Origin: Tautonia plasticadhaerens
GTDB lineage: Bacteria; Planctomycetota; Planctomycetia; Isosphaerales; Isosphaeraceae
Assembly: GCF_007752535.1 (NCBI RefSeq)
Contig: NZ_CP036426.1
Location: 7,502,001 to 7,566,000 of the forward strand
Reading direction: 5' to 3'
DNA: 64,000 nt
Each line of letters starts with the position of its first letter. Positions within the stretch are counted from its first letter, which is position 1. Of the stretch, positions 29,782 to 36,486 are shown piece by piece. The translations under genes were made by a program, and so were the position numbers. Below the pieces are notes generated by a model. It did no database searches. It was not told where the DNA came from and saw nothing but the letters and a program-made list of their open reading frames with translations.

Positions 29782-32700
29782 CTACCCGGTGGAAGGGAGA
29801 TCGAATTCACTCGGCGATGTCTCCTCGGCGGGAGGCTCGACGGCCGGGGGCGCCTCGGGACGGTCAGGATCGGGCTCCCCGAACGGATCGATCGAGGGTC
29901 CTTCCGACCTCGGCGGGTATGTTCGGATCACCAGTTGGTCGCCGGGCTGGATGAGGACGTCCTCCTCGCCTCGCCCGAGCGATCCCCGTATGGTGGAGAA
30001 CTTGCGGATCGGCGCTCCCCGGCGGAGCAGGAAGACAGTCCCCGGCACATCCTCGGTCCCCCCCGTCAATTCCAGGGCGTCGGTGATCCTCAGCTCGCCC
30101 GGGATCAGGAATCGTCCGGGAGTCTGCACCCCTCCCGTCACGGTGAAGGTCCCCGGCTCCTCCCCGACCGCCACGGCGTCGAGCCGCTCCACCAGCTCGC
30201 GGAGGGACTGCACCAGCTCCGGCTCGATCGCCGTGGCGTCCTCGTCCTCCCCCGAGAATCGGTAGAGCGTCGGGCCGTCCTCCTGGACCTCGTCGACGGG
30301 AGGGGGCCCCCCGAGCGTCCGATCGGGGTCGTCGAGCCCCTCGCCGACCACCCGGGCCCGGAGCCCCGGCGAGCGCTCTTCCCAGAGATCCGAGTAGCGA
30401 CCCATCAGCTTCTTCCGCTCGATCTCGAACGCGATGAGGCCCGGATCGCTCGGGGCCTGGGCCACGCGCCGGAGCTGCTCGATCTTCCGGTCCTGGTAGG
30501 CGATCTGGGCCCGGAGATCCTGGACCTCCGGGAGTGCCAGGAACGCCTGCTCCACCAGGATCCGCAGGTCCCGGGGCACGACGAGCCGGTCGCCGGGCAA
30601 GAGCTGGTAGTTCGTGCTCGCGTCCCCCCGCTCGACGATCGCCTCTAGGTCGATCGGCAGGACCTCGGCCGGGTCCCCCGTCCCCGACGGCCGGACGAGC
30701 CGGATCCGCTCCCGGTCGGCCGTCGGCAGCAGGCCCCCGGCATAGTTGATCGCGTCAAGGACCGTCTCATTCCCGGTCACGTTCAGCCGGCCCGGCTGGA
30801 TCACGTCCCCCTGGACGTAGTAGACCTTGCTGTTGTACGAGACGACGTCGACGAAGACGCGGTCCGAATCCCCCGGCCGCTTCATGGCGTAGTCGAGCGT
30901 CTCGGGGTCGAGCTGGATCAGCCCCAGGGACTCGTCGTCCAGGAACTCGCGGAGGTGGAGGATCACCTTCTCCTTGATCTCCGAGGGGGTCAGCCCCGCG
31001 ACATAGAGATCCCCGTAGAAGTCCAGCGAGATCGTGCCGTCGGGCCTCACCAGCCGCTCCCCGGCGATCGGCCGCCCGGGCAACGCCTCCAGCACCTCGA
31101 TCCGGATCAGGTCCGGCGGCTCGACGACGTACTCCGGCAGCGTCGCCTTCTCCGACTCCCTCGGCACGCCGGGTCCATGGTCGGGCTCCTCGACCAGCTC
31201 CGGGTCCCACTCCGGGACGGCCCGCTCCTCGGGGAGATTCGGACCCGGCTCGACCGGCTCCTCCTCGACCCGGAACGGCCCCGAGGCCCCCTCCTCCGGC
31301 CGGACCGGCCGCACCCGATCCGGGAATTCCATGCGGGGCGGCTCCGGAGGCAGGTCGTCCGGGCCCCCGCCGCCCGAGGGCTCCGAGGCGGGCGGCCTCG
31401 GCCCCCCGGCGTCCCGATGCCGTTCCGCCTCGGACGGGCCACGGCCCGGGTGGTCGAACGGCGAGCGATCCGCCTCGGACGGGCTACGGCCCGGGTGGTC
31501 GAACGGCGAGCGATCCGCCTCGGACGGGCTACGGCCCGGGTGGTCGAACGGCGAGCGATCCGGCGGCAGCGAATCCGGTTCGATCGCGGAAGCGTTCGGC
31601 GGATCGAGCGGATCCGGCGGCATATTGCTGTCGTTCGACGGCAACGGAGCCCCTGACGATTCCTCGTCCGTGTCCGCCTCGGTCGGGCCCCCCGAACGAA
31701 GCCGACGCGAGACCTCATCGATCCGAACCTGGATTTCCTTAAGCTCCTTGCGGAGGGCCCGCACGTCGGGATCGGCCAGGAACTCCTGCTCGATTCGGCG
31801 CTCGACCCAGACCCGGGGATCGACCTTGCCGGCCTCCTGCCGGGCAACCTCAAGCCCGGCCCGGGCCTCGATCTCCTCGTATTCCAGCTCCAGCATCTCC
31901 TGGTTCAGCTTCCGGAGTTCATCCTGGTAGACGGACACGTCGAGGTCCGGTTCCGCAGCCTCCGCCTCATGTTTGAGCTGGTCCACTCGCGCCAGCTTCT
32001 CCCCCATCAGCCCCCGCTTCTGGCCGATGGCGGACAACTTCGCTTCGGCCCGCCGGAGCGCCTGCGTCGGGTTCTCCTCATCGGCGGCCAGGCGTGCCCG
32101 CAGGGCCGGCTCCAGGTCGGCCCAGAGTTGGTTGTACCGCTCCAGGAGCCGCTGCTGCTGGATCTTCAGCCGGGCCAGGGCGGGGTCCATCGGGGGCGAA
32201 TTCACCCGGGGCCTGACCGACTCCGGCCGGTCGGCCTCATGCAAGGGCTCCCCCGGCAGGGGTTCGAGGTTCAACATCGATTCCGGGGCGACGATCTCGA
32301 CCACCCTCTCGATTTCGTCGATCGGGCGAGATCGGACGCCATCCGGATCCTCGACCTGGATCATGATTCGTTGCCCTCCTTCGCCTTCGGCCAGGACGTT
32401 CAGCAGGAACGGCCCGGAGCGACGGCCGGGCTCCAGCTCGTCGATCGAGAGTTCGAAGCGACGGACCTCGGTGGGCTTGCCATGATCGTCGAAGCCAACG
32501 AGGCCGCCACTGAGCGTGGCGACGAGGGTTGTCCTCCCGGTCCGGCTGCGGCCTTCGTTTCGGACCGTGACCTGGTACCCGAGCGTCGAGCCCCGGATCA
32601 CCTTCCCCTCGGGACCGGCCACCTCGACCGTGACCTCCGGCCGGGCCATCGCCTCCAGTTCCCGCAAGGCCCCGGCGAGCCGGACCATCTTCAGCCGCAG

Positions 32701-33879
32701 TGCGGCCAGATTCGACTGGAGTTCCTGCTCGGCCTCGACGATCACGCCGGGCACGTCCCGTCCCATCGAGATCCGCTCACGACGCTCCTCCAGCGCCCCG
32801 ACCAGTTCCCGGGCCTCTCGGATTTGCGTCTGGACCGACCGGATCTCGTCGGCGACTCGTTGGCTCCTTGCCACCGGGACCCGAGTGGGCTCCTCGCCGT
32901 GCTCCGCCGTCGATGAGAGGAATCTCGGAGTCTCCGCCTCGGCGTCCGCTCCCACCCCCGAGGCTGCGCCCGGCGTCAGCCCGACGGGCAGCGCTTCCTT
33001 CGGCGTCCCATCCTGTCGCCCTCCCAGCCCCCCGACGGCCGCCGCCGTCACGCCCACCGACAGGAGTGCCACGCCCGCCGCCTGCACCTTCACCCATCCC
33101 GTCATCGCGATCACTCCTTCGGCCAGGTGGGCCACCGAGCCCGAGACGACCGCCCCGGCGATCCCCGCCGGGGCCGATCGGAACGCGTCCCGGACGGCCA
33201 GGGTCACGGTGCGGCGGAGCAACGGGCCCGGGACGACCGGGAGCACCCCGAGGCCGAGCCCCCTCCGGGAGAGGCGGGCCCGGAGCATCGCCCGGGCCCG
33301 GGAAAGCCGGGCCTTGACCGTGCCGACGGGGCGGCCGAGCCGGGAGGCGGCCTCGTCCAGGCTCCGGCCCTCGAAGTGGCAGAGCACCACCGCCTCCCGG
33401 TAGCGGGCGGGCAGGCGGTCGACCTCGTCCCGGAGCAGCGCCGCCCGCTCCCGGGTCAGCGCGAGGTCGAGCGGCCCGGGGTCGGGCGAGGCTGCCTCGG
33501 GGGCCGCCGGCACGCCCACCTCCCGACGGCCGACCGACCGCTTCCGGGCCCGGGTCGCCACCCTCCGGGCCACCCCGTACAGCCATCGGCCGGCCGAGTC
33601 GTCCACCCGGACCGAGCCCGCCTTCCTCGCCAGCACGAGGAAGGTGGCCTGGAAGGCGTCCTCGGCGTCGATCGGGTCGGGGACGACCCGGCGGCAGACC
33701 CCCAGCACCATCGGCCCGTGCCGCGCCACGATGGCCTCGAAGGCGGCCTCGGCGGCCTCCTCGTCGGCCCGATCGGCGAACCGCTCCAGCAGCTCCCCGT
33801 CGGTCAGGGCGGCGACCGATCCCCCCCGGAAGATCGCCCCCACCTGCTTCAAAACCGCCCCGGTCCCCCTGGCCGCCAT
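29782..33879 (-). CDS. ECF sigma factor fused to a polysaccharide-export (SLBB) protein
   Basis: This is a 1365-residue fusion. Residues about 40-110 are sigma region 2 (EDAFQATFLVLARKA) and about 155-205 region 4 (LPARYREAVVLCHFEGRSL, VGTVKARLSRARAML). One membrane helix (about 265-285) follows. The likely periplasmic part has a CARDB/DUF11-like beta domain (about 400-520), charged coiled-coil stretches, three 15-residue SPFDHPGRSPSEADR repeats, then a Wza/GumB-type export domain (PPDLIRIEVLEALPG, about 930-1010) and two SLBB-like segments (YYVQGDVIQPGRLNV about 1015, FTVTGGVQTPGRFLI about 1245). The start at 33879 has GGGAGGG upstream. A sigma domain tethered to an envelope-exposed exporter domain suggests sensing coupled to transcription. 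It is leftward, downstream of the repeat array. Confidence 0.85.
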   Translation of the reverse strand: MAARGTGAVLKQVGAIFRGGSVAALTDGELLERFADRADEEAAEAAFEAIVARHGPMVLGVCRRVVPDPIDAEDAFQATFLVLARKAGSVRVDDSAGRWLYGVARRVATRARKRSVGRREVGVPAAPEAASPDPGPLDLALTRERAALLRDEVDRLPARYREAVVLCHFEGRSLDEAASRLGRPVGTVKARLSRARAMLRARLSRRGLGLGVLPVVPGPLLRRTVTLAVRDAFRSAPAGIAGAVVSGSVAHLAEGVIAMTGWVKVQAAGVALLSVGVTAAAVGGLGGRQDGTPKEALPVGLTPGAASGVGADAEAETPRFLSSTAEHGEEPTRVPVARSQRVADEIRSVQTQIREARELVGALEERRERISMGRDVPGVIVEAEQELQSNLAALRLKMVRLAGALRELEAMARPEVTVEVAGPEGKVIRGSTLGYQVTVRNEGRSRTGRTTLVATLSGGLVGFDDHGKPTEVRRFELSIDELEPGRRSGPFLLNVLAEGEGGQRIMIQVEDPDGVRSRPIDEIERVVEIVAPESMLNLEPLPGEPLHEADRPESVRPRVNSPPMDPALARLKIQQQRLLERYNQLWADLEPALRARLAADEENPTQALRRAEAKLSAIGQKRGLMGEKLARVDQLKHEAEAAEPDLDVSVYQDELRKLNQEMLELEYEEIEARAGLEVARQEAGKVDPRVWVERRIEQEFLADPDVRALRKELKEIQVRIDEVSRRLRSGGPTEADTDEESSGAPLPSNDSNMPPDPLDPPNASAIEPDSLPPDRSPFDHPGRSPSEADRSPFDHPGRSPSEADRSPFDHPGRGPSEAERHRDAGGPRPPASEPSGGGGPDDLPPEPPRMEFPDRVRPVRPEEGASGPFRVEEEPVEPGPNLPEERAVPEWDPELVEEPDHGPGVPRESEKATLPEYVVEPPDLIRIEVLEALPGRPIAGERLVRPDGTISLDFYGDLYVAGLTPSEIKEKVILHLREFLDDESLGLIQLDPETLDYAMKRPGDSDRVFVDVVSYNSKVYYVQGDVIQPGRLNVTGNETVLDAINYAGGLLPTADRERIRLVRPSGTGDPAEVLPIDLEAIVERGDASTNYQLLPGDRLVVPRDLRILVEQAFLALPEVQDLRAQIAYQDRKIEQLRRVAQAPSDPGLIAFEIERKKLMGRYSDLWEERSPGLRARVVGEGLDDPDRTLGGPPPVDEVQEDGPTLYRFSGEDEDATAIEPELVQSLRELVERLDAVAVGEEPGTFTVTGGVQTPGRFLIPGELRITDALELTGGTEDVPGTVFLLRRGAPIRKFSTIRGSLGRGEEDVLIQPGDQLVIRTYPPRSEGPSIDPFGEPDPDRPEAPPAVEPPAEETSPSEFDLPSTG
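31425..31559 (-). repeat. Three tandem 45-bp in-frame repeats
   Basis: Units at 31425-31469, 31470-31514 and 31515-31559 are nearly identical in DNA and encode the 15-residue repeat SPFDHPGRSPSEADR (last copy GPSEAER). They lie in the Pro/Glu-rich linker before the export domain of the sigma fusion. Near-identity at DNA level indicates recent or ongoing expansion, so copy number may vary among strains. Confidence 0.9.
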
Positions 33880-33983
33880 CGGATGCCCTCCCCGGTCGCC
33901 CTCCCCCGATCGCCCCGGCCTCGCCGCCGACACCCTATCCCATGCACCGGCTCGCCCCGGGGTTGCATCCCCCCGCCGCAAAA

Positions 33984-34001
33984 TCGTCCCATTTCGGACG
34001 A
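33984..34001. promoter_or_regulatory. Inverted repeat upstream of the sigma-fusion gene
   Basis: A perfect 6-bp inverted repeat, TCGTCC-CATTTC-GGACGA, lies 105 bp upstream of the sigma-fusion start in a conspicuously AT-rich patch (33978-34020, including GATAATAAGG). It is a plausible operator or promoter element. No clear -35/-10 pair is visible, which would fit an alternative sigma factor. Confidence 0.35.
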
Positions 34002-34294
34002 CCAAACTCACGATAATAAGGATGACCCCGAATTCCTGCCCCGGACCGACCCGATCCACCCCGAGCATCCCCGACCCCAGACGAAGCACCGAGGACGGCC
34101 CTGACGTGACTGCCCGAGCCGACGCCACGCCCGATCACCCGCGAGGCCGCCTCGCCCCGGACGCGCCGCCCCGCGCGACGGGCCGCCCCGGCACGCTCGC
34201 CGGGCATTGCGCGGCCGGGGACCGACGTGGAGTTGCCCGTCCCCACCTCCAGGGCACGGCCCCCGCCCCCCCAGAGGGAACGCCGTCGCCTCGC

Positions 34295-34400
34295 GGTGCG
34301 CCGTGCGGAGCGAACCCATTTCGGGCCCGAACAATCTCCGTTAAGCTATTTCCAATAAATGACTTGTGCCAATTACCTCCGGCGAGCCGGTGGGCGCACC
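34295..34400. repeat. 106-bp inverted-repeat element, copy A
   Basis: The copy is bounded by GGTGCGCC and GGCGCACC, perfect 8-bp inverted repeats. It contains the conserved GCGAACCCATTTC block followed by an AT-rich core. Copies A to D all have exactly the same outer length, 106 bp, although their cores have diverged. Confidence 0.85.
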
Positions 34401-34466
34401 GACCCCCGCCCCCCCCGGCGCCACCCCGCCCCGGGCGGGCGATCCCGCTCCCCCGCCGGCTCGGGC

Positions 34467-34572
34467 GGTGCGCCGCGCGGAGCGAACCCATTTTCGGGCG
34501 GGCATTATCTCCCCAATTCCATTCTCAAAAACTGGTTACGACGAACGCTCTCCCGACCGGCTTGGGCGCACC
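34467..34572. repeat. 106-bp inverted-repeat element, copy B
   Basis: It has the same ends as copy A (GGTGCGCC/GGCGCACC) and the same GCGAACCCATTT block at the same offset. The core has CAAAAACTGGTTACGACGAA, which aligns with AAAACCGTTT in copy C and AGAATGATTT in copy D. It is separated from copy A by 66 bp of C-rich spacer. Confidence 0.85.
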
Positions 34573-34672
34573 GGCCGCCTCCCCTCCCGCCCACGACCCC
34601 CGAGCCGGGGCAGCCCCCGGCGTGCCCGATCCGGGGACGAGCCCCCCGCGGGCCAGGCCCCGGCCGGGTCGG

Positions 34673-34778
34673 GTCTTCCCCGGCGGAACGAACCCATTTC
34701 CGAGGCAGCCAATCCGCCCCAAATCCTTCCGGGAAAACCGTTTGAGGCGGAAGCAACTCGGCGCGCCGCCGGCGCACC
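34673..34778. repeat. 106-bp inverted-repeat element, copy C (degenerate left end)
   Basis: The right end GGCGCACC and the ACGAACCCATTTCC block are intact. The left end is degenerate (GTCTTCCC in place of GGTGCGCC). Placing the start by the fixed offset of the ACCCATTT block gives 106 bp again. It is separated from copy B by 100 bp of C-rich spacer. Confidence 0.75.
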
Positions 34779-34845
34779 GGCCGCCCCCCTGCCCGGCCCG
34801 AGCCTCCAGCCCCACTCCCGGGCCCGGGGGACGCCGGATCGTCCC

Positions 34846-34951
34846 GGTGCGCCGCGCGGAGCGAACCCATTTCCGGGGCACTCAACCGGACTCAACTTCC
34901 GCAATCAGAATGATTTGGGACGAAGGGATGCAGACTCCATTACGGCGCACC
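34846..34951. repeat. 106-bp inverted-repeat element, copy D
   Basis: Both 8-bp ends are perfect, the GCGAACCCATTTCC block is at the standard offset, and the core is AT-rich (GCAATCAGAATGATTTGGGACGAA split across 34901-34924). It is 67 bp from copy C and ends 20 bp before the 3' end of the sensor kinase gene (34972). The rest of the gene-free 33880-34971 stretch is GC-rich spacer with no supportable coding frame. Confidence 0.85.
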
Positions 34952-34971: not shown

Positions 34972-36486
34972 TCAGGGCGTCCCGGGAGACCCGACCGGCA
35001 GCTCGATCTGGAACCGGGCGCCGGGTCCCCCGGAGGGGGGGAGCGGCCGGAGGGTGCCCCCCTGGGCCCGGATCGAGTCCCGGGCGATGGTCAGGCCGCG
35101 GCCCCGGCCGGGCCCCTTGGTGGAGAAGCCGGGCTCGAAGACCCGGGAGGCGGCCGACCCGGGCAGGCCGGGGCCGTTGTCGCGGACCTCGATCCGCACC
35201 ACCGGCCCCTCCCCCTCGACCGAGATGCCGATCCGGGGTCGGTCGCCGGTCGAGCCCCGGGCGGTCGCCTCCAGCGCGTTCTTGAGCAGGTTGACCAGCG
35301 CGTGCACCAGCAGCCGGCGATCGGCCAGGACGAGCCGGTCCATCCCCCCGTCCGGGGGCCGGTCCACCCCGGCCGAGGCCGACTCGATCCGGGGGCCGAG
35401 CAGCGTCAGGGCCTCGTCGATCGCGTCCCCGACCCGGATCGGGGCCGGCTCGACCGGCAGGGAGGACTGCTTGAGGTACCCGTCCAGCTCCCGGACCGTC
35501 AGGGCGATGTACTGCGAGCAGACGCTGATCTGCCGGGCCACGTCCCGGGCGATCGCCGAGCCGGTCCTCAGCTCCACCTCCGGGTCGAGCCCCTCGTCGG
35601 CCAGGCGGCGGTCGAGGGCGCGTCGGGCCCGGGCCGCCTTGCCGGGCTCGACCCCGGCGTCGGCCAGGGCGTCGGCCAGGGCGTCGGGGAGGCGGTCGAG
35701 CAGCCGGTCGAACTGGTCGAGGTACTCGACCAGGTTCCTCCGCTCGTTGGCGAGCACGAAGACGACGTTCCCCAGCTCGTGGCAGGTCCGGTCCGCCAGG
35801 TCCAGGGTCGCCCGCTGGGCCGACTCCCGGGCGGCCCGGTCGCTCAGGGTACGGGCCTGCACCACCATCGCCCCCAGGCAGAGCAGCGAGTACCCCGACA
35901 ACCCCAGGACCGCCAGCAGCAGGCGGCGGTAGGAGGTCTCCAGCCCCGTCAGCGCCTCCTCGATCAGCACCCCCGGCCGGTAGCCGACGACCACCCCCAG
36001 CGCCGGTCCCCCCGCCGACCGGCCGAGCAGCCCGAACCGGTGTTCGGCCTCCGGCAGGCCCGGCGTCGGCGGCGAGGGGCTGAACCAGGAGGCCGCCGGG
36101 GGCCCCCCGCGGGGGGCCAGCTCGATCCGGTCGATCGCCACGACGGCGAACCGGGCGTCCCCCTGCTCGGCCTCGGCCCCCAGCCGGGCCAGGGCGCCCC
36201 GGAGCCGGGCCAGGCGGGTCGGGTCGTCGGGGCCCGATCGCCAGGAGTCGGCGTAGTCGGCCAGGCCCTTGCCCAGCTCGTCGACCGCCGTGGACCGCGC
36301 CCAGTCCTCGATCGCCCGCTCCGAGACCTCCCGGCCCGCCCTCCGGAGCCGGTCATATTCCCGGGCCTGCACGATCAGGCTGAAGATCAGTGCCGCCACC
36401 GACACCACCCCCACCACCAGCCCCGGCACCCCCAGGATCTCCATCGGCCGGGCGGCGGCACCGGCCAGGCGTCGGGCGAGGCTCAT
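34972..36486 (-). CDS. Membrane sensor histidine kinase
   Basis: This 504-residue kinase has membrane helices at about 17-40 and 186-210 enclosing a roughly 145-residue extracytoplasmic sensor region. The phosphoacceptor region is RTCHELGN (His near 235), like the HELxNP box of NtrB-type kinases. The N-box is LVNLLKNALEA, and the G-boxes are DNGPGLPG and GRGRGLTIARDSIRAQGG. No response regulator gene is adjacent. It lies 285 bp downstream of a periplasmic-binding-protein-like gene and upstream of the repeat array and sigma fusion, all leftward, so the binding protein may deliver its ligand signal. Confidence 0.88.
   Translation of the reverse strand: MSLARRLAGAAARPMEILGVPGLVVGVVSVAALIFSLIVQAREYDRLRRAGREVSERAIEDWARSTAVDELGKGLADYADSWRSGPDDPTRLARLRGALARLGAEAEQGDARFAVVAIDRIELAPRGGPPAASWFSPSPPTPGLPEAEHRFGLLGRSAGGPALGVVVGYRPGVLIEEALTGLETSYRRLLLAVLGLSGYSLLCLGAMVVQARTLSDRAARESAQRATLDLADRTCHELGNVVFVLANERRNLVEYLDQFDRLLDRLPDALADALADAGVEPGKAARARRALDRRLADEGLDPEVELRTGSAIARDVARQISVCSQYIALTVRELDGYLKQSSLPVEPAPIRVGDAIDEALTLLGPRIESASAGVDRPPDGGMDRLVLADRRLLVHALVNLLKNALEATARGSTGDRPRIGISVEGEGPVVRIEVRDNGPGLPGSAASRVFEPGFSTKGPGRGRGLTIARDSIRAQGGTLRPLPPSGGPGARFQIELPVGSPGTP

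Follow-up and report, generated by a model that had tools for sequence, protein, structure and literature searches.

The genome of Tautonia plasticadhaerens contains about 69 non-coding arrays of a compound DNA element, and the distances within and between these elements fall on a lattice of roughly one helical turn. We propose, with a probability of about 0.6, that these are helically phased protein-docking DNA arrays in non-coding transcription units, and that their likeliest binders are proteins of a multi-copy family carrying the motif ANRRNAxxSTGPRTxEGK (hereafter STGPRT). The copies, their conserved blocks and their phasing come directly from computation on genome sequences, as do an upstream motif (P), a boxA-like motif matching that of the rRNA leaders, synteny at a few loci and the association with STGPRT genes.

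One array lies in the window, by which we mean the whole 64,000-nucleotide stretch of DNA analysed here. Its features and neighbours are as follows:

29782 to 33879, minus strand: fusion of an ECF-type sigma factor with a large C-terminal part (named by eye and from the initial annotation)
33992 to 34021, plus strand: degenerate, promoter-like P motif TTTCGGACGACCAAACTCACGATAATAAGG, a locus-specific variant of GTGACTG-N16-CGATNNT, assigned by eye
34022 to 34294, plus strand: non-coding leader, from P to the first element
34295 to 34400, plus strand: element 1, length class 87; box 34306-34321, right end 34393-34400
34467 to 34572, plus strand: element 2, length class 87; box 34478-34493, right end 34565-34572
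34673 to 34778, plus strand: element 3, length class 87, left end decayed; box 34684-34699, right end 34771-34778
34846 to 34951, plus strand: element 4, length class 87; box 34857-34872, right end 34944-34951
34972 to 36486, minus strand: sensor-kinase-like gene, convergent with the array (name from the initial annotation)

Re-measurement returned the four copies at the positions given in the initial annotation. The right end GGCGCACC begins 87 bp past the box start in all four, so that each copy spans 106 bp, and three copies carry the paired ends GGTGCGCC/GGCGCACC, the left end of copy 3 having decayed. The sigma factor gene is divergent from the array, and the 3′ end of the kinase gene lies 20 bp from element 4. 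A P profile gave no match in the window at E ≤ 5, the local variant being recognised by eye only, and no boxA-like motif was recognised by eye in the leader (34022-34294). The initial annotation knew of no named family for these repeats, and Rfam likewise gave no match at gathering threshold over the whole window; at E ≤ 5 the window array gave a single match, far below its gathering score. The sigma-factor open frame is 1,448 amino acids long (29782-34128), with the gene call starting at 33879, and the long C-terminal part of this ECF-like fusion includes three near-identical short repeats (RSPFDHPGRSPSEA).

The element is abundant in the host genome (G000; 9,395,224 bases in 6 contigs). Its core 12-mer, GCGAACCCATTT, occurs 68 times in these 9.4 Mb and its reversed control not once, with box copies also present on contigs C2 and C6 (plasmids by size). 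From 40 loci around these matches plus the window, nhmmer produced 98 matches, and removal of seven with E above 0.01 left 91 copies in 42 arrays, for which right ends were sought at offsets of 55-124 from the box. Five elements are solitary and sit in the 3′ end of STGPRT genes; the other 37 of the 42 are non-coding arrays. Motif P led to 52 loci with a downstream box, 20 of them already in the first set, thereby adding 32 arrays (6 of which rest on a single box) and bringing the total to about 69. An array holds one to seven boxes, placed after P and a leader.

Alignment by length class resolved four conserved blocks per element: the box GCGAACCCATTT (longer form CGGAGCGAACCCATTTC), CGCAA, TTGCG and GGCGCACCG. 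Distances from box to right end (n = 91) take the values 63/64 (19 copies), 74-76 (37), 85/87 (23), 97/98 (2) and 109 (10), with none between, so the fixed 106-bp length reported initially holds for the window array and not for the family. Copies in the same array agree in length class in 51 of 65 pairs, against 29% expected. CGCAA and TTGCG form an inverted pair 21 bp apart, the TT of TTGCG following the AA of CGCAA at that distance in classes 75, 85, 87 and 109, with TTGCG weak in class 63. The two other block gaps change by about 11-12 bp between classes: in the class consensus sequences the AA of CGCAA stands at +25/26, +36/37 or +48, and the TT of TTGCG precedes the right end by 28/29 or 40 bp. 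The GCGCAC right-end motif is also found repeated at 11-13 bp, near a one-turn array, at L110 (from 1436, seven copies) and L158 (from 915).

These distances were evaluated against a null in which each value was jittered by up to 8 bp. For the box-to-right-end lattice the period is 11.45 bp (R = 0.95, n = 91); for the spacer between elements, measured from one right end to the box that follows, it is 11.0 bp (R = 0.64, n = 49). With one spacer value per array the period is 10.95 bp and the median R 0.62, compared with a 99.9% null of 0.59 (n = 34). Both results were replicated on P-found arrays outside the first set, where box to next right end gave 10.90 bp (R = 0.87, n = 85) and element spacings of at least 60 bp gave 11.30 bp (R = 0.52, n = 39, p = 0.001). 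P showed no convincing phasing with the first box (p = 0.11 and 0.03). Box-to-box spacings at the short end, 22-25 and 31-34 bp, are matched equally well by other periods (best 10.35 and 9.00). PMC8501960 gives the in vivo DNA helical repeat of bacteria as about 11 bp per turn. The finding that inner gaps and spacers are both phased favours proteins lined up on a single face of the double-stranded DNA, and lends support to the protein-bound site that the initial annotation had listed among its readings. The DNA-helical-repeat periodicity is present within Tautonia and absent in the same form from genomes G011, G026 and G007; in other genera, boxes are often evenly spaced at 41, 64-65 or 35-37 bp, not all of them multiples of 11. 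Two G011 arrays (G011:C1:6353509-6353726 and 6484841-6484975) have boxes in tandem at 41 bp, with one gap of 42, a spacing that is not a multiple of 11.

Most arrays stand downstream of motif P, GTGACTG-N16-CGATNNTNWNG. Strict P matches the host genome 64 times and its control never, with a spacer of 16 nt in 63 of the 64. Within 1 kb of these matches a strict box lies downstream at 52, upstream at 7 and antisense at 2. Seven of the 12 P loci lacking a downstream strict box are STGPRT-gene loci (L080 to L084, L089 and L290), and one (L102) has an open frame directly downstream; at the remaining four (L111, L274, L278 and L280) no strict box was present within 1 kb downstream. A boxA-like motif resembling CTCTTTGGCAATCCGA follows P within 300 nt at 25 of 57 loci at up to 4 mismatches and at 21 of 57 at up to 3, the cut-off having been picked after the counts were known; controls gave 0 of 114, and at 32 of 57 loci the motif was not seen within 300 nt at up to 4 mismatches. 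The same motif, at 2 mismatches, occurs in all three rRNA leaders of the host genome, about 470 nt before the 16S gene. The boxA consensus of gamma-proteobacteria is given as GYTCTTTAANA in PMC5725501, and boxA, which precedes rRNA, is reported in PMC7862264 also ahead of CRISPR arrays. P is a putative promoter, and boxA would act at the arrays that have it. Of 14 STGPRT loci from genome G011, 7 (L174, L176, L180, L183, L184, L186 and L187) have a boxA-like motif, CTCTTTGACAATCCGG or a variant of it, some 30-60 nt past the stop codon.

The strongest competing explanation is a function in RNA, given somewhat low fold energies and units that look transcribed. Transcribed elements would fold, and the length classes would record turns of the A-form helix, which takes 11 bp per turn, in RNA or RNA-DNA hybrids. 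Array boxes have the same orientation as P (52 of 64, versus 2 of 64 antisense), a boxA matching the rRNA leaders accompanies P at 25 of 57 loci, the observed period is above 10.5, and element fold energies fall below those of shuffles (mean z −1.49; 35% below −2), so some RNA structure is possible. The folded RNA raised in the initial annotation nevertheless fared poorly when copies were aligned: no covarying stem rose above the highest of 20 shuffled nulls in the equal-length copies of class 75 (n = 31) or class 63 (n = 18). The left end GGTGCGCC occurs in 49 of 91 copies (1 mismatch allowed) and is missing in 42, whereas the right end GGCGCACC is kept in 90 of 91, and we therefore rejected GGTGCGCC/GGCGCACC as an obligatory RNA stem; the 8-bp terminal inverted repeat noted earlier describes three of the four window copies and does not define the family. 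Spacers between elements are phased too, STGPRT genes contain the box in either orientation, and Rfam matched nothing in the window at gathering threshold. We regard an RNA function as unlikely.

The candidate binders were reached through the five solitary elements. STGPRT has 28 matches in the host genome, and the box is present in the coding tail of all 12 close paralogues (at least 62% identity; five were found by box and seven from the protein alone), with a right end at 109 in each and, in L078, another at 99. At L079 the element extends beyond the stop codon, and in two of the 12 (L077 and L079) the box falls in a second reading frame. A recognisable tail box is missing in 13 of the 25 paralogues examined in this genome, the more distant ones. 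P stands upstream of 17 of 25 STGPRT genes within 1 mismatch, while the antisense control never fell below 3. Decayed STGPRT genes were considered as the source of the leaders and rejected, as a tblastn search of 41 loci detected STGPRT sequence at none but the five gene loci.

A scan of named genomes retained at least 80 STGPRT loci, and the matches listed include records from Planctomycetes, Phycisphaerae, Acidobacteria, Alphaproteobacteria and Chloroflexi, with 69 complete open reading frames (ORFs) testable. The 14-mer RMAACRAASCCAAT (2 mismatches allowed), which was chosen after the tails were inspected, occurs on either strand of the 3′ tail in 44 of the 69 ORFs among the matches listed, compared with 26 of 690 codon-shuffled tails; related STGPRT copies were counted separately, so these are not independent events. 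On the sense strand it occurs in 19 of the 69 (frames 8, 8 and 3), and antisense occurrences, again among the matches listed, fall in two frames (19 and 9). A peptide-level explanation of the tails is weak, since the site appears in three sense and two antisense frames and takes a second frame in two of the 12 close paralogues; the antisense frame-0 group holds close paralogues of one genome (KBS 96) and could partly reflect peptide conservation, which the codon shuffle leaves uncontrolled. At Acidobacteria loci L213-L228 and L248-L273 the box is antisense in many STGPRT tails (peptides NGFVSS and FGFVCS).

The strict 14-mer occurs 30 times in G000 and is rare elsewhere in the phylum as sampled here (99 genomes), at 0-7 per genome. 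With the short box RMAACGAASCCA, applied to 45 genomes of the family, those with at least 10 STGPRT genes have a median of 47.5 matches and the others 8, and box number correlates with STGPRT copy number over genus means (Spearman 0.64, p = 0.002, n = 21). Exceptions run both ways: six genomes with at least 10 STGPRT genes have fewer than 15 boxes, and four with 0 or 1 have at least 20. By far the most boxes among the 45 are in the incomplete genome G044, with 240 matches (control 2) and 26 STGPRT matches; G011 has 37 STGPRT matches. The two STGPRT proteins scanned had no match in NCBIfam and none above cut-off in Pfam, and one scanned against PHROGs and PADLOC gave no match. A structure prediction, for which 49 of 60 usable STGPRT ORFs were aligned, is all helical (pLDDT 80, pTM 0.50); a fold search with the model found no PDB or viral match at E ≤ 0.001, and the sequence matched solved structures only at E of 0.3 or more.

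Arrays recur at the same places in related species. Orthologues of the window sigma factor and kinase flank an array in G041, the sigma factor counterpart beyond it matching by tblastn at 60% over residues 1-266 and 50% over 889-1242, and the kinase orthologues of G040, G041 and G042 showing 74-75% identity. The G041 locus has a P variant, TTTTGGCTGCCCAAAATCACGATACTTA, syntenic with the degenerate P of the window and similar to it, a boxA-like motif, CTCTTTGAAAACCCGGA, in the counterpart of the window leader, and a first element that reads by eye as class 63/75 instead of 87. The kinase orthologue of G040 has an element next to it, near a contig start; in the genus-mate G042 no box was found in the 1.5 kb beside that orthologue. 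Three further host loci have arrays at the same place in G040/G041, namely L011, matched on both flanks, and L014 and L101, each matched on one. Intergenic identity is 0.46 at L014/L155 against 0.45 when shuffled and 0.47 at L011/L166 against 0.44. Both loci nevertheless retain P, boxes and right ends, so that selection seems to act on the grammar and not on the sequence. Two pairs preserve the length class, L011/L166 (109, 109 vs 109, 110, 101, the 101 being off the lattice) and L101/L171 (63, 63 vs 62); it has changed at L014/L155 (75, 85 vs 87). L036/L156/L157 was rejected as a syntenic array, the shared gene being, in L036, on the other side and in the other orientation. Arrays also stand ahead of purN-like and gyrA-like genes in G040/G041 (L154/L155 and L158/L159; gene names by eye).

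The initial annotation had also offered a non-autonomous mobile repeat, and such elements might be spread by STGPRT proteins in the way that REP/BIME relate to RAYT. High copy number, copies on contigs C2 and C6, a P common to STGPRT genes and arrays, and the likeness of their right ends fit this account. Among 53 host arrays, 93 of 1,378 pairs align over at least 100 bp at 64-80% identity, which indicates shared ancestry; no pair exceeds 80% over 100 bp, and hence no recent copying is seen. Arrays stay in place across species, at three loci and at the window's own, despite diverged intergenic DNA, the STGPRT proteins scanned matched no family above cut-off, and helical phasing with fixed P spacing points to selection on each copy. 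Mobility so weakened is rather improbable as an explanation of the arrays. Transposition or other copying is a possible origin for them, and one that leaves conservation at fixed places unexplained.

Ordinary operator or leader arrays regulating adjacent genes, such as the sigma factor gene of the window, are very unlikely to account for the family. Some arrays do lie up to 374 bp ahead of a same-strand gene (22 of 55), those before the gyrA-like and purN-like genes are kept in G040/G041, and the window array is kept between sigma factor and kinase in G041. However, 33 of the 55 arrays run up to a convergent gene, which in 17 cases is less than 60 bp away, and most arrays have a P of their own; with genes after the array in these two orientations, the arrays look free-standing. 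The initial annotation placed the window array inside the region expected to control the sigma factor, which is right as to its upstream location, but the array reads away from the sigma gene and its relatives mark it as free-standing. Local chance duplication without function, put forward there as the null should no other copies exist, has practically no probability left, the 68 genome copies against 0 for the control refuting it already, before the replicated phasing and cross-species conservation are counted.

Our preferred reading, of phased protein-docking arrays, would work as follows. Each array would be a free-standing non-coding unit consisting of P, boxA in under half of cases, a leader and then the boxes, and each element would be a compound docking site on double-stranded DNA. 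Its four blocks, held about whole helical turns apart, would place proteins on one face and keep successive elements in register. The likeliest box binder would be the STGPRT family, whose genes share P, whose close copies carry the box in their 3′ coding end and which tends to be more numerous in genera with more boxes. The nucleoprotein array would probably be built, cleared or read partly by means of transcription running through it, with antitermination at those arrays that have a boxA, and the most plausible role for the arrays would be as chromosome-wide nucleoprotein nodes serving organisation, insulation or regulation. The box inside STGPRT-family genes, together with the phased arrays, points to an undescribed protein-DNA system.

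More tentatively, STGPRT and the arrays might make up an undescribed chromatin-like system, with dozens of nodes per chromosome, each on its own non-coding gene. In this broader picture, which we hold to be possible but doubtful, many nodes might be antiterminated like rRNA, the binder genes might carry the docking site in their own coding ends, and the system might reach to Acidobacteria, Phycisphaerae and Alphaproteobacteria (mostly metagenome-assembled records). We found no description of such arrays or of STGPRT in the open-licence literature searched. If true, the docking reading would give context to a widespread protein family unnamed in the libraries used, define a class of bacterial non-coding genes that conserves grammar and helical phase instead of sequence, and supply a genomic read-out of the in vivo DNA helical repeat. 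Condensed nucleoids are a noted trait of planctomycetes, and chromosome-wide phased docking sites would therefore make nucleoid organisation testable.

Several known systems resemble the arrays in part. One is REP/BIME with RAYT (TnpA-REP), in which many clustered intergenic copies likewise accompany an associated protein family. REP sequences are palindromic repeats of 20-40 bp with a hairpin, partnered by a Y1 (HUH) transposase. Here, by contrast, the box is non-palindromic (by eye), the site is compound, the outer inverted repeat is missing in 42 of 91 copies, and copies are helically phased in one orientation behind a promoter-like motif; neither of the two STGPRT proteins scanned matched a Y1 transposase, and the host genome has 28 matches to the family. 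MITEs differ in their terminal inverted repeats, which are not on all array copies (left 49 of 91, right 90 of 91). Sites of the ParB/parS type are repeated over the chromosome and present inside the presumed binder's gene, and both points are shared by the arrays, but STGPRT has no Pfam match to a ParB family, the sites stand in phased arrays behind a promoter-like motif, and binding is putative here. Loop-forming operators such as lac also space their sites in steps of about 11 bp (PMC8501960), whereas the arrays have many blocks, many loci and no known regulator. CRISPR loci with a leader boxA, as described in PMC7862264, are likewise untranslated tandem arrays behind a boxA leader, which applies to under half of the arrays here; the array repeats are non-identical, their cores hold conserved CGCAA/TTGCG in place of captured spacers, and the arrays are short and number about 69 per genome. 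As for boxA-antiterminated untranslated operons, a boxA-like motif follows P at 25 of 57 P loci and in 0 of 114 controls, and is present in 3 of 3 rRNA leaders; it was not seen at 32 of the 57 nor, by eye, in the window. The arrays fail a tested defining feature of each of the REP/RAYT, MITE, CRISPR and structured RNA families.
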